From: Scenedesmus sp. ARA3
Taxonomy: Eukaryota > Chlorophyta > Chlorophyceae > Sphaeropleales > Scenedesmaceae
Length of the DNA: 64,000 bases
Assembly (NCBI GenBank): GCA_004335835.1
Contig: RWJK01001419.1
Span: 62,001-126,000 of the forward strand
Reading direction: 5' to 3'
Shown here one piece after another: positions 3,914-45,100 of this stretch (the stretch's first letter is position 1; each line of letters begins with the position of its first letter). The notes beneath the pieces are model-generated. The model was not told the origin of the DNA, ran no database searches, and saw nothing but the letters and a program-made list of their open reading frames with translations. The position numbers were made by a program, and so were the translations under genes.

Positions 3914-4832
3914 TCACTCAGCACCAAGGCCTAACTGCCGCTCACGCCGCACTGCCTGCAGCGGCTCCGGCCTGCCCTGCCGCGCCCTGCCCAGCCCCTC
4001 ACCCTCCCGCCAGCCCCAACCAGCCAACAGCCTCGAGCCAATGCCCCGTGTATGAGCCTCAAAGCCAGCAAAGCTGCCATGCACATTGCCGACGGCTGCA
4101 TCTGCTGCTGCTGCCGCCGCAGCCTGGCCCTGGCCGTCTGCTGCTGCTGCTGCTGCCGAGCGCGACTCGCGCCGCTGGTTGCGCAGCTGCTGCTTCTTGG
4201 CCTTCTTCACTTGCTGAGCTGTCATGCCCAATGTAACGACCAGGCCAGGCGAGCCATCGTCTCCAGAGTCAGCATCATCATCGGCAGCAGCAGTCACAAC
4301 CGATATGCCCATCGGAGACATAGCTGCTGTTGCTGCTCCTATGGCAGGGCCCAAGGCTGTGTTTGGCGCTGTTAGGCGCTTCTCTAACTGCTGCTGACGC
4401 TGCTGCCGGCGCTGCTGCCGCTTCGCTGCTGCTGGGTTTGGTGCTGCCCTCAAAGCTGCAAACTTGTCCTCAAGCACCTGCAGCTGTTGACTACCCTGCC
4501 TGCTGCTGCCAGCCCCTGCTGCTGCATCCCCTGCTGCTTCTGCTCTAGCTTCTGCTGTGCTGATATCACCAGACTGCTGCTGCATACCCTCCTCCTGCTG
4601 TTGTACAAAGCCGAGGCCTGCACTAAAGCCTAGCCCAAAGTGCAAAGGTGCCCTATCGTACAAAGGAGCAGACGAACCTGCCCCTGCTGCTGCTGCTCCT
4701 GCTACTGTACAACCAGCCTCGGCAGCTGGCACTGCTGCTGCTGCTGCTGCTGGCGCTGCCTCTTGCACCAAACCCAGGCTAGCACCAGCTGTAGGCCAGC
4801 AGCGGCCCCGGTCTTCAAACCAAGCCGGCTCA

Positions 4833-37013: not shown

Positions 37014-37588
37014 TTCAAGCCGAGGCACAAAGAGTATATGGTTTCACTTGCTGTACTCAGCAGCGCTGGCTCTGAGAGGTGTGTGACCATGCATCCTGGA
37101 GTACTGCTGCACCAGCAATACACTTGGCCAAAGCATGCAGGTCGTCGTACGCTTAAACATGGATTATAAAGATATAATACGTGTAGTTGTAACCGATGTG
37201 TTCAGCGTGGGTCCCACTAAACGCGTAGGCAACTTTCAAAACCCTCGTTGCAAAGCAGCAACATGACAGTGTCAACTCAGCATCCGCGCGCGCTGCAAGC
37301 CCACAAACTCCGCTAAACATGCAGCAGCAGAGCATCGATCTATCAAGGCCATTTTTAGATACGAAGAGCCGCGCCTTTGCTGCTTGAAGTGCTCAACAGC
37401 ACGGTTGAACTGCTAAACAGAACACCTGTACAGCTAGGAGCTCAGCTCACACTGTTGCGCTATCATATTTGTTGCAAGCTCAACATCACGAGCCAAACTG
37501 CATGCATGCATAGGTCAGCAGAACCTGTTAAGGTCCACCACTGAACAGCAGTACAGTACTGTTTGGGCTGCAGCAGCACGGAGAGGCC
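37014..37588. other. Divergent promoter region between the LRR and ubiquitin ligase genes
   Basis: 575 bp between opposing start codons, with an AT-rich patch (TATAAAGATATAATA) near 37165. No coding exon seen. Confidence 0.5.
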
Positions 37589-40500
37589 ATGGAGCACTTC
37601 TGCTGTGACTGCTGCAATGACATGCGCCCGCTGGATGCCTTGCTGGACCTGGACTGCCACTGCTGCATCTGCACTAATTGCTGCGATGAGCGGCTGCGCC
37701 CATGCATGAAGCCAGTGCAGCCAGCACCAAGCACAGCAGCTGCTGAGTATGCAGTGGGCGACGCTGTAAGGTACGCGCCACATTCCCTTCAGGAAGATCT
37801 GCTCCCTCTCCTGCAAAAATGCGAGCCAGTGACTATGTGTACAGCACGCATGCACACCTTGTGCTGCAGGCAACCTCCTGGCAACTGCCCTGGTTTCCTG
37901 CTCTGCCTTGCAGGTACAGGCAGCGGGACGGCAAGCTGTGCTTGGCTAAGGTGGTGCAAGTTGACAGGTCCATCCAGCCGTGGGGCTACGGCATTGAGCT
38001 GCAAGGCAACCCAGACATTCGCTTCACTGAGGGCAACCGCCTGCTGCCGCAGCAGTTGAACAGCGAGTGCCTGCAGGAAGGTACGTGCAAAGCACAGTGC
38101 TGGTTACTCCTGGACATACTTTACATGCGCCTGTAGCAGCAGCTGCCATGCACGGCAGTCCATTGGTCAGGATTTCCCTCGCCTCCTCATTCATGCAGCA
38201 TTTCTGTCTCGTGCTTGCAGGATTCCCTGTGGTGCGCTGCCCCAAGTGCAGCAGGCAGCTGGACAGGCAGCAGCTGGCGCGCATCCTGCCTGATGCCCTG
38301 CAGCAGCTGGATGAAGCTCTCACTAATGCCTGGCTAGATGCAAAGCGCATCATCCGCTGCCCAACACCAGGCTGCGAAGCGCTTATTGAGAAGGTGCCAG
38401 CAGCAGCAAGCAGCAGCAGCAGCAGCCGGTGCACATGCAGCAGCAGCAACGGACCTAACAGCAGCGGTGGCACCACCTGCAGCAGCTGCCAAGCGCAGCA
38501 CAAAGCAGCCAACCGCTACCGCTGCAGCGCGTGCAGCAACAGCTTCTGCTCAGGCTGCAGGACAGTGCCGTACCATGAAGGTCTCAGCTGTAGAGAAGCC
38601 GCCGCGCCCTGCTGCCCCTTCTGCGATGTGCGAGTGCCGGATGCAGCAGTTGTCATCACTGGGGACATGAGTGTGCGGCAGCTGAGGGATGCAGCCAGCA
38701 GCTTAGGTGCGGACTGCAGCTGGTGCCTGGAGCGAGGGGAGCTGGTGTCTGTGTACAAGCGTGCAGCGCAGGTGTGCAGCCGCAGCCGGGTGGTGACAGC
38801 AACCACCAGGCATGGCTGGGAGTGGCACTCGGGCAAATACACTTGCGTGCATGATGGCAGTAGCAGTAGAGCTTGCTGGGCTGCTTGCGTGTGCGGCAGG
38901 CTGCGTGGAGGGCTGACAGCTTAGTTGAGGGCGTTGGCTTGCAGCAGGAACGTGAGCAGTTGCTGCGAACAGCTGTGCAATATCAGACGCCAGCTGACAC
39001 TGCTGTTATTCACATATGTTGCTGCTGCTTTTGTTCAACAGGTGTGCAGCAGTGGCAGCTGCAGGTCGCGGCTATCAGAGCTGTGCACACGGCAATTGCC
39101 CTGCGGACACTTCTGCTGCGGCGTGCGGGGCACCAGCCCATGCCTGCCCTGCCTAGTGGAAGGCTGCAGCAGCCAGGTAATGCTTGCACAGGATTGCTGG
39201 CGCCTGCAACGCTGCGACAACAGCAAACAGGGCATTGTTGCAAATTACCATGGTGTTTACTTGACGCTGCTGTAAAAAACTCATTCGCCCGGCATTTGGG
39301 CAGCTGTGTTTTACCTGGCACCATTTGCGCAGCAAGCTTACCCCTTCCTGCTGCTTCTGCTTTGCTGTGGTGTTCTACTGCAGGCCAGCCTGGCAGGTGA
39401 TGGCAACTGCTGCTTCTGCTTTGAGCCGCTGCCCTCTGCTGCGGTCATCGCCTTGCAGTGCCAGGCTGGGCACTTTGTGCACCTCTCCTGCGCCCGCAAA
39501 CGTCTGCAGGTGCGCTGATTTGCGCAGGGCGCACTGCTCGTAGCTCATAGCAGGTGCATGAGTGCAGAAGCAGTGTGCTGTACATGCCTGTTACCATGCC
39601 CTGCCCTGGGCTGGTGCTGTCAGACTACGACAGGGGGCATTGCCCACATATGTAGCTCACATACATAGCTGCTGCTTAAACTTACTGTTGCTGCTGCAGG
39701 TTGGCTGCCCTGGGCCTGCCCTCACGTTTGACTTCCTGTTCTGCCCCATGTGTGGCTCTGGCAAGGAGGGGCGCTGCGGCAACATCCAGGTGGGCCGCTA
39801 GGGGCAGGCAGCCAGGGCATGGTTGCTGGTGTCTCGCGTGCCTGGCCGCTGCCATGCAGGATGAGCCAGTCATCCTGCTGTTGCGCTGTGCATGCTGGCA
39901 ACAGGCGTTGGTTGCCTCAGGCGCTTGCGCTCATTGGGTCTCCTTGTGCAATTGCTGCGCTCAACATGCGTGCACTGCCTGTGCGTGCAGGTGATGACTG
40001 CGCAGCCCCACCTGCAGCATAGCCAGCTGCAGGCAGCGCTGGACAAGCCGCTGCGTATCAGGTGAGCCGAATCTCGCAGTTGAAGCAGACGAACCATGTG
40101 ACACTGCTGGTGGCTTTCAAGGCAGCCCTTACCTTGGCAGGGGGGTGCAGCTGTCAGTAAGTCTTCAACGTTCCCGTACGTGTACTGCATGTGTGTCGTG
40201 CAAGCTTCTGTTCTGATGTGACTGGCCCGGCTGCTGACGCGGCTTGTGGTCCTTACACTGCCCTGCACCCCGCACCAGGCAGCACGTCGTGCAGCTGGCC
40301 AAGCAGCGGCTGAAGCTTGAAGGCGCTACAAAGCGCGACAGGGAGCTGCAGCCTGGTGGCAAGTTTGACGGCAGGCCTGTTGACTGGGCGCTGTCTAAGT
40401 ATGTGTTCTTTGAGTGCAGCAAGTGCCACCTGCCGTACTTTGGAGGTGCACGGGAGTGCGGCGCTGCTGGGGATGCACCAGGTGGGGGACAGGCACTTGC

Positions 40501-41228
40501 TTGGCTGTGTATTGCTGCAGATACGGATGCTTGCTGTGCCTGCCTGCCAGGTCTATTGTGCACCCAGAGCTGTTTGATGCGCTGGAAGGGAGCTGCGCCC
40601 TAGCCTTGCACTATTTTGTGCACCACTAGCACTACATAAGGCTGTTATGGGGCTGTTCTGGTGGCAGAAGCAGCAACGGATTGATGACGCAGCCTGCTAA
40701 TTGCGTGTCCTGTTGTGATCCATGCAGCGGCGTATGATGCCCAGGAGCTGGTGTGTGGCAGCTGCTCTGCACACGCAGCAGGCAACAACTGCCCTTCACA
40801 CGGCACAGAGTTTGTCGCCTGGAAGTGCAAGTAAGTGTCCCTGCAGCCACCCTGCAATTACAGGAGCTCAAATTGATCAGTAGTGCAGCGCAGCTGCAGC
40901 TTGCATGTGTTGCCGGCCGACTTTGCTTGCACTTTTGCTGTAAGCTGTCGCTGTCTTGTACATGCGTGCTGTTACATGCAACCCTGCTACCGACGTTTGC
41001 GGCATGTGTGTCCTGTTGCTGCCGTGACCTGGCAGGTACTGCTGCAGCGTGGCCAGCTGGTTCTGCTGGGGCAGCACACACATGTGCAGCCGCTGCCACG
41101 ACTACCCGAGCCAGCGGCATGGCAACCGCTGCCCAGGCATGGGCCGCTGCGAGCTGACTGTGCCGCACCCTCCCCCGGGTGAAAGTGCATGCCTGGGTTG
41201 CGAGGCGTGCAGGCACAAGGACGGGTGA
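37589..41228 (+). CDS. E3 ubiquitin ligase: RING/IBR modules joined to a MYCBP2-type RING-Cys-relay module
   Basis: Ten exons close in phase: 37589-37770, 37914-38080, 38221-38771, 39042-39176, 39384-39509, 39700-39789, 39991-40061, 40279-40481, 40728-40830 and 41036-41228, about 606 residues. Residues 5-39 plus RCPKC (about 122) look like a split RING. An IBR-like zinc region follows (IIRCPTPGCEALIEK, then YRCSACSNSFCSGC). Residues 301-345 hold another Cys-rich unit (LPCGHFCCGVRG, CLPCLVEGC). Residues 354-405 are a RING, then a helical linker, then a tandem-cysteine domain (about 482-606) matching human MYCBP2. Aligned with published MYCBP2 residues, Cys501, Glu515, Cys553 and His564 correspond to C4520, E4534, C4572 and H4583; F4573 is Trp554. 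The RCR class relays ubiquitin between two cysteines and esterifies Thr/Ser. Activity here is inferred. Confidence 0.9.
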
Positions 41229-42103: not shown

Positions 42104-45100
42104 ATGAATGCGCTCGAAGACACGAATGGAGAGGACGTGTGTGTGTTCCTCACACTTGACGATGCCTGCCTGGCAGCAATATTAGGCAACCTGAGCGCAC
42201 AGCAGCTGAGAGCAGCTGCTGCTGTGTGCAAGAGGCTACTGGCCATCAGCTCAGCGGACTCTCTGTGGATCAAGCACATCAGGGACACCTTTGGCCTCTG
42301 CATTTCAACTGTGAAGGGCGCGCAGCGCGTGCCAGGTGCAGCTCTACAGCTGTACAACAGGTGCGCTGCTGCAGCAGCAGCTGCCTGTGGCCCGGGCAGC
42401 ACAGGTGCAGACAGCAACCGCGTATATGTACAGCAACTCACGATGCACTGCAAAAAAACTAACTTCTAGTCAATGTGGTACAGCATACACACAGCTCCCT
42501 GTATCGCTACTGGTTTTCAACTACACAAACCCCAACTTGTCCTGCCACTTGAACAGGTTGCAGAAGGCCAAGCAGCTGCCACATGCACTGCCAGCACAGG
42601 CGCTGTGCACAGATGGCGGCTGCGACGAGCCATTCGATGCTTACTGGGTGAGCTCTGCACAGCAGCAGGCCAGCCAGGAGCACAGCAACAACCCCAGCAG
42701 CAATGGGCAGCTGTCTTCCTTACCAGTGCATGCATATTCCAGGATTACTCAATGCAATTTCTGCACAACATGGCCAACACAATGAGCAGCATTCACGCTT
42801 GGCTAAGAGCTAAGCTGCACCAGAACTTGCTTCATGCGTTTCGCATGTGGTTCTTTGCAATGCAGGCGGGCAACATGTTCAGCAGCAAGCGCGCCGCGCT
42901 GTACTGCAGCGAGGCCAACACCCGCAACATCCACGTCTTCGCTCGGCTGTGCCCTCCTGGAGACAGCACCGCAAGTCCAGAGGAGCAGCAGCAGCAGCCA
43001 GCAGAGGAGCGCAGGCAGTTCTTGCTAGGCCGCTGTGCTCAAGCTGCGCGGCATCTCATCAGTCAGCGCGTGGTAGACGCACACGAGCAGCTACGGCAGA
43101 CTGAAAGCATGCAGCAGCAGCAGAGCGCGGCTGGGCGCTGGAGGTCTCTCACCCGGCTGGTGTGGGAGCGTGTGCGGCCAGCTGACAAGCTGCGGGCTGC
43201 GACTGCAGCGCTGCAGAGCTGCAGCACAGAAGGTGTGCGGAGCAAGCCAGTAGCCGCAGTGCAGGGTGAAGTTAAGGCAGCATGATTAAGCGCATGCTTT
43301 CTTACTTGTCGTGTCTTTGTACAGCGCTGAGTACGCCCGTTCTGCGTGTCCTGTGAAAAGGTTTGCAGATGCATGTCCTGTTTGCTGCCCGCTTCATGCG
43401 CAAGCACCACTGCTGCACAACTCAAAGCACACATACACAGCAGGTGTCGTCATGCAGTGGTGCAACATTGCATCCTGATGCAAAGTTTTGTAGTCACAAC
43501 ACATCTGCAGCACGTGATCGCGCCCTTGCTGTTGTCCTTCTGCCTGCAGGCCTTGCAGATTTCATGGTTGCTGCCTACATGGGCCAGCAGCAGTACGCAA
43601 GCTGGGCACGCTCCCTGTTCAGCGGCCTGAATGATGAACAGATAGCGCATGTAGGTTATTCTGAAGATGCAAACATGCCTTTTTATGCATCCTTGAGACA
43701 CAGGCAATATGCTGTGCCGGAGAGTTGCTTGTGTACACATGGCTTTAGGCGACGGTGCTGCCTGCATCACAGCAGCGCAAGCATATATGCGTCTCACTCT
43801 TGTTGGCTGTGCAGATGGATGGAACTTGCTTGCGTGCGCGGACAGCAGGCACCGCAGCCAGTGTTGCCCTGACTCCGTGTCTGTACTGAACACTGCTGCT
43901 GCTGCTGTTGCTGCTGCTGCAACAAATCAAACTTGCCGGCAGGTGCACGAGGTTGCCTTTCAGATGTGGAGTGAGATGATGGAGCCCCCGGCCCGCCACA
44001 GCTTCCTGATGCTGCCCGCACCACCACAGCCAGCGCTGCTGCCAAACGCCCCAGCACCAGCTGCAGCAGCAGCTGCTGCAGCCCCAGGCCCCAGCAGCAC
44101 TGCTCCTGGCGCAGCTGCTACTGCTGCACATGGAGCCGCACAGCAGCAGCAGCAGCAGCAGCGGCGCCTGCTGTGTGCTAAGTACCAGCTGGAAGCAATC
44201 TGCGGAAATGCCTCATCGGCTGAAGGCACATGTGAGCAGCCTGGGGGCGCCGGCAGCAGTCCTGCAGTGCTGTGCATGCATGCATGGCAGTGTCTGTACA
44301 CTCCTCCTTGCGCAATGCATTCAGTGTACTGGGGCCTGCTGGTCGTAGGCCGCGGCATACTCTCTGTCTTGCGTCAAACAGGCTCACCTGGTGCGAGCAA
44401 ATGTCACAACATGCCCTGCTTGCATTTAGTCAGCATCCAAGCAAGCAACTTACAGCCGATGCTCCTCGTGCTGCTGCTGCTGCTGCTGCCGCCTGCTGGT
44501 ACAGACATTGTGCAGGAATGCATCCTCGCGAGAGATGGCATGAGCGGCAGCACCTGCCCCGTCCGCAGCGGCTTTGTCTTCCTGGGTCACTATGCAGGCG
44601 CCACATCTGCAGACCACAGCACTAGCCTGCTGCAAGCAGGCAGCAGCAGCAGTGGTGGTGGTGGCGGTGATTTGCTGCTGCACCGCCCAGCAGCAGGGGA
44701 GGATGCGGTACGTGCAGCAGCAGCAGGCGAGCAAGCTGACGCTGCTGTCAAGGTGCTGGCAGCAGACCTAGGTGGCATGGTGCACCAGCCGTGGGTTGCT
44801 GCTGCGGCTGACCTGACTAGTGCGGCTGCAGTGCACACAGCAAGCCGCGCAGGCCTGCTGCCGCCTATTATCGACTATGTTTCGTTTGGGGGAGGCGATG
44901 GTGCAGAGTACATAGAGTTTACAGCACCCAGCTCGGAGCAGGTGAGGCAGCAGCAGCAGGAGTGGGTGGCGCTGTGTGGCGGCAGCAGCAGCAGCAGCAG
45001 GGGCAGTGCAGGCGGTGATGGATCGTGGCCGGCACGTGGCTTGCTGGCGCCTGTGCTGTGGTTTAGGTGAGCCTTTGGTTGCTGTGACTGCAGTGCAGTG

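Follow-up and report, generated by a model that had tools for sequence, protein, structure and literature searches.

Whether a single small algal protein can unite modules of two classes of ubiquitin ligase, and which of them would then carry the catalysis, is the question raised by a gene of the green alga Scenedesmus sp. ARA3. It lies in the 64,000-nucleotide stretch of DNA analysed here, hereafter the window (GenBank assembly GCA_004335835.1, contig RWJK01001419.1, positions 62,001 to 126,000, forward strand). A first-pass annotation, made from the letters alone, had proposed one ten-exon gene of about 606 residues, in which a RING/IBR module precedes a RING-Cys-relay (RCR) module of the MYCBP2 type. 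As argued below, the encoded protein is probably a compact RCR ubiquitin ligase, with a RING1-IBR of the kind found in RBR ligases acting as a regulatory or targeting front.

The gene structure agrees with that proposal. All nine introns are GT-AG, and joining the ten exons yields a single continuous frame of 1,821 nucleotides that encodes 606 residues, 66 of them cysteines, while an in-frame stop at 37529 lies upstream of the start of this open reading frame.

37589..41228, + strand: whole gene, from GT-AG splicing and homologues
37589-37770, 37914-38080, 38221-38771, 39042-39176, 39384-39509, + strand: exons 1-5
39700-39789, 39991-40061, 40279-40481, 40728-40830, 41036-41228, + strand: exons 6-10

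The second half of the protein gives the clearest signal. Residues 350-603 match the solved MYCBP2 RCR structures (phmmer E 1.2e-43 for PDB 5o6c and 1.7e-43 for 6t7f), and a RING followed by a tandem-cysteine (TC) domain is recognised by sequence in the window protein and by fold in relatives, which bears out the MYCBP2-type module predicted by the annotation. Conservation was evaluated on a set of 80 proteins, namely 79 from three homologue searches plus the window protein, of which eight failed the complete-RCR pattern and were left out, leaving 72. One of the searches was run from relative P0009 with a length window of 0.55-1.75 times 503 amino acids, which excludes full-length MYCBP2, and the alignment-based search gave seven proteins, presumably a lower bound, as P0004, P0006, P0007 and P0009 were not among them.

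39408..39753, + strand: RCR RING, residues 354-405, exons 5-6 (phmmer alignment)
40036..40324, + strand: helical linker between RING and TC domain, residues 433-456 (phmmer alignment; helix in the P0006 model)
40406..41225, + strand: TC domain, residues 484-606 (phmmer alignment; relatives by fold)
40457..40459, + strand: C501, upstream relay cysteine, equivalent to MYCBP2 C4520 (alignment; C in 72 of 72)
40745..40747, + strand: E515, triad glutamate, at the MYCBP2 E4534 position (alignment)
41064..41066, + strand: C553, downstream relay cysteine, equivalent to MYCBP2 C4572 (alignment; C in 72 of 72)
41067..41069, + strand: W554, at the MYCBP2 F4573 position, adjoining the second relay cysteine
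41097..41099, + strand: H564, triad histidine, equivalent to MYCBP2 H4583 (alignment; H in 72 of 72)

Each zinc ligand of the RCR RING is kept in 69-72 of the 72 proteins, and its hydrophobic E2-contact residue in 68. C501 and C553 occupy the places of the two relay cysteines, and C553, H564 and E515 those of the Cys-His-Glu esterification site. MYCBP2 numbers were obtained as 4377+i for chain residue i, on construct bounds with which the chain numbers 4381-4638 in the fold comparison agree; E4534, C4572 and H4583 are further catalytic positions of MYCBP2. A review describes the Cys-His-Glu site of MYCBP2 and its preference for threonine (PMC9527308), and C4520S has been employed as an inactive mutant (PMC12664034).

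The layout is not, as the wording of the annotation suggested, peculiar to one small algal enzyme. A profile of the family IBR (E < 1e-4) matches 42 of the 80 proteins, 20 of these having served to train it. The RCR module is complete in 38 of the 42, so that 38 of the 72 RCR proteins carry the match, and in 37 of them it covers the IBR's second half. Among the 42 of 72 proteins with at least 150 residues ahead of their cysteine-rich domain, 31 are IBR-positive (P0001 over the first half only) and 11 negative, all 11 falling within a 27-member MYCBP2-type clade (ultrafast bootstrap 99) in which the profile finds no match (0/27). This clade, delimited from the tree itself without an outgroup root, includes Thecamonas but not the window protein, and seven of its 27 members show a B-box-like pattern, many others being too short to tell. 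Seven proteins outside it without an IBR match have 8-139 upstream residues; some may be cut sequences, and a short RCR form without IBR is possible, since P0074 begins with Met. Named IBR carriers are Tetradesmus (a partial model), Apatococcus, Tetrahymena and Pseudocohnilembus, to which Cyanophora and Mesostigma are presumably to be added, judging from identifier prefixes. This spread, on a tree without outgroup, suggests a great age for the layout. Where IBR carriers have a descriptive name, it is 'hypothetical protein' or 'RING-type domain-containing', and P0024 and P0042 of the MYCBP2-type clade are already named 'RCR-type'. One scan of viral contigs returned 600 stretches matched by pattern, none of which was confirmed as a relative, and five proteins run against NCBIfam, which covers bacteria and archaea, gave no match. 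P0059 carries an HSP70 domain (PF00012) ahead of its RCR segment, an arrangement that may reflect either a genuine fusion or a chimeric gene model.

Regarding the front, its RING1 is interrupted in the window protein.

37601..37684, + strand: first half of RING1, residues 5-32 (alignment with relatives; P0006 fold)
37748..38049, + strand: residues 54-106, Tudor-like insert (SH3-like barrel) interrupting RING1, across intron 1
38232..38249, + strand: last zinc pair of RING1, residues 121-126, CPKC
38358..38591, + strand: IBR, residues 163-240, with eight zinc ligands and an internal Ser-rich linker

Profile and fold comparisons link the RING1-IBR of the family to RBR ligases. The union of an RBR-type front with a MYCBP2-type RCR module in one compact protein holds. 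Both RING1 and IBR are present in the family; the window protein has a split RING1 and an IBR that scores below the Pfam cut-off. This IBR nonetheless looks real, because its ligands C163, C168, C218, C221, C226, C229, H235 and C240 do not vary among the window protein and five relatives and because P0009 exceeds the Pfam cut-off with 28.4 bits. Our own profile matches the window protein at E 6e-39, the protein being among its training sequences. Five residues precede the ligand histidine, which stands in a PYH motif in 25 of 25 aligned sequences, the usual spacing in IBR domains being four. An initial IBR pattern found no IBR in the 80 proteins, its two matches falling in the TC domain; it failed because of this extra residue, and the counts above were taken from the profile instead.

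Several observations weigh against this overall assignment. The domain search proposed with the annotation did return PF01485 over residues 145-240, at E 5.6e-4 and 20.4 bits, below the cut-off of 24.3; this is the only Pfam hit of the window protein at E up to 1, and a RING is not named. With phmmer, the window protein retrieves no PDB chain of an RBR ligase at E up to 1, and the best RBR match to the model of the green relative P0006 has a Foldseek E of 0.03. On the RCR side, the triad glutamate position is not strict (E in 44, D in 18 and other residues in 10 of 72), and the pocket differs from that of MYCBP2 at two places, where W554 and M559 take the place of phenylalanines. All 27 members of the MYCBP2-type clade have Phe after the second relay cysteine; of the 45 other proteins, 35 have Trp, nine Phe and one Leu. 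The hydroxyl preference may thus differ from that of MYCBP2, and the Trp beside the relay cysteine in particular may change which hydroxyl is accepted. A further adverse point, the E2-contact residue of P0005, belongs to the alternative considered next.

RING1-IBR might instead be a second working dock, holding E2~ubiquitin open as RBR ligases do and feeding the TC relay in lieu of a RING2, so that the enzyme would have two entry points. The IBR profile accompanies all 31 proteins with at least 150 upstream residues outside the MYCBP2-type clade, and by fold the RING1-IBR of P0053 is similar to RBR modules whose structures include E2-ubiquitin (8eaz, 8eb0, 5edv). The E2-contact position of RING1 is I, L or V in 12 of 25 aligned sequences, among which the green P0005 retains the hydrophobic residue, but another residue stands there in the window protein and three of the four aligned green relatives (P0004, P0006 and P0007), and RING1 is itself split by the insert. 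We consider this alternative unlikely, although a second dock is possible mainly in non-green forms. The E2 is therefore placed on the RCR RING and RING1-IBR regarded as a gate or targeting front, given that the contact residue is kept in 68 of 72 in the former and 12 of 25 in the latter.

A problem in the gene model, either two genes or a main transcript that skips the IBR, would mean that the actual product is an RCR ligase whose IBR is incomplete or missing. The closest database protein comes from Tetradesmus obliquus (98% identity over the aligned part). The T. obliquus model P0001 jumps from residue 174 to 301, omitting residues 175-300 in frame, as would be expected from a splice donor at 38394, within exon 3; the alternative in-frame intron 38394-39041 would drop 126 codons, and with them the IBR's second half as well as a SAP-like insert, and for this reason an IBR-skipping isoform is possible. 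A Scenedesmus gene model also lacks RING1 and IBR. The skipped part is, however, carried by P0003, P0004, P0005, P0006 and P0007, with identities over the second IBR half of 19/33, 17/33, 21/33 and 16/33 for P0003, P0004, P0005 and P0006, respectively, as well as by non-algal relatives, four of them with Trinity transcript names (P0020, P0035, P0051, P0061). P0005, whose source name GHRR01016627.1 reads as a transcript accession, runs unbroken through RING1, IBR and cysteine-rich region and stops before the RING; it crosses the junction of exons 3 and 4, so that a single gene extends over 38772-39041, where the annotation had feared a split. A two-gene reading is unlikely in view of continuous relatives, and the alternative as a whole appears very improbable. 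An exon-by-exon search of the 87-Mb genome, whose counts are lower bounds, found no second full copy; a fragment on contig C1189 (L014:1291-1638) comprises exon 1, intron 1 and exon 2, spans residues 39-105, is near-identical over the Tudor-like insert and looks like a partial duplication.

What follows the IBR decides whether two catalytic systems coexist.

38613..39167, + strand: cysteine-rich domain, residues 248-342, broken by the SAP-like insert and intron 3
38667..38765, + strand: SAP-like helical insert, residues 266-298 (helices in the P0006 model; no Pfam hit)

An RBR-type RING2 with a catalytic cysteine was not found after the IBR, Pfam giving no such match in the window protein, and the claim that two cysteine-relay architectures are joined is not upheld. 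Its position is occupied by a conserved cysteine-rich domain: the IBR is followed by C-R-F/Y-C in most relatives and C-P-F-C in the window protein, and then by this domain, which ends in CLPCL or a near variant. An equivalent stretch precedes the RING in insect MYCBP2-type proteins; 14 columns are invariant in 11 sequences of both groups (including P0014, P0017 and P0042), and the MYCBP2 construct of known structure does not seem to include the domain. The shared core is accordingly the cysteine-rich domain, RING and TC domain, and the fronts differ. Green forms carry two inserts, the Tudor-like one in RING1 and the one in the cysteine-rich domain, probably SAP-like from its sequence pattern, which by eye is also present in P0032, presumably from Mesostigma by its identifier. 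The annotation missed both inserts. A very worn RING2 is possible, but that the whole protein is a degenerate RBR ligase with a mainly structural TC domain is the least probable alternative, and hardly credible: the cysteine-rich domain opens with C-x2-C ... C-x4-C, which recalls how RING2 binds its first zinc, yet its profile finds nothing in the PDB at E up to 10, it also occurs in MYCBP2-clade proteins, and both TC catalytic cysteines are invariant in 72 of 72. Since no RING2 was found and only the RCR cysteines are recognisable, the protein is, as far as its sequence tells, an RCR enzyme with an RBR-type front and not two working catalytic systems.

For such an RCR ligase, E2~ubiquitin would most likely dock on the second RING (residues 354-405), and ubiquitin would move to C501 and then to C553, which with H564 and E515 would transfer it to a substrate hydroxyl (Thr, Ser or a non-protein hydroxyl). 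RING1-IBR and its Tudor-like insert would most likely bind ubiquitin or a partner and switch the relay, in the way that ubiquitin binding is thought to act in some RBR ligases.

In the giant MYCBP2 the RCR module is preceded by RCC1, PHR and B-box-like parts. The algal protein shares with MYCBP2/PAM/Highwire the order of cysteine-rich domain, RING, helical linker and TC domain, with both relay cysteines, His and Glu at corresponding positions, but has only 606 residues, and RING1-IBR replaces those upstream parts. With RBR ligases (HOIL-1, ARIH2, HOIP, RNF216, parkin) the family shares RING1 followed by IBR, whereas a cysteine-rich domain and an RCR module come next and the IBR has the longer spacing before its histidine. 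CUL9, a cullin fused to an RBR (PMC13061254), likewise unites two E3 architectures in one chain, but with a cullin and a complete RBR and no RCR. RCR and RBR have each been described already, and their union in one compact protein would be the new element; none was described among the literature matches listed, whose coverage did not extend to the two founding RCR papers.

An F-box-like domain (PF12937; 25.7 bits against a cut-off of 24.3) lies in the next reading frame downstream (42170-42274, + strand), and by eye the model P0008 of another alga continues from the ligase into a stretch resembling window positions 42470-43285. The pairing of ligase and F-box-like domain may be conserved. MYCBP2 works with the F-box protein FBXO45 (PMC12664034).

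The literature surveyed reports RCR chemistry for MYCBP2 and its orthologues in animals. If algae and protists have a compact family that shares its catalytic residues, relay ubiquitination would be an old trait of eukaryotes, and ubiquitin esters perhaps likewise. More tentatively, RING1-IBR-RCR proteins could form an unrecognised, eukaryote-wide ligase class and the older RCR form, whose RBR front would load or gate a hydroxyl-esterifying two-cysteine relay, the giant MYCBP2 being a later derivative that lost this front. An enzyme of about 500-600 residues would suit work on structure and mechanism, for which MYCBP2 is unwieldy, and the linkage of RBR and RCR in one chain would make the relation of both families testable.
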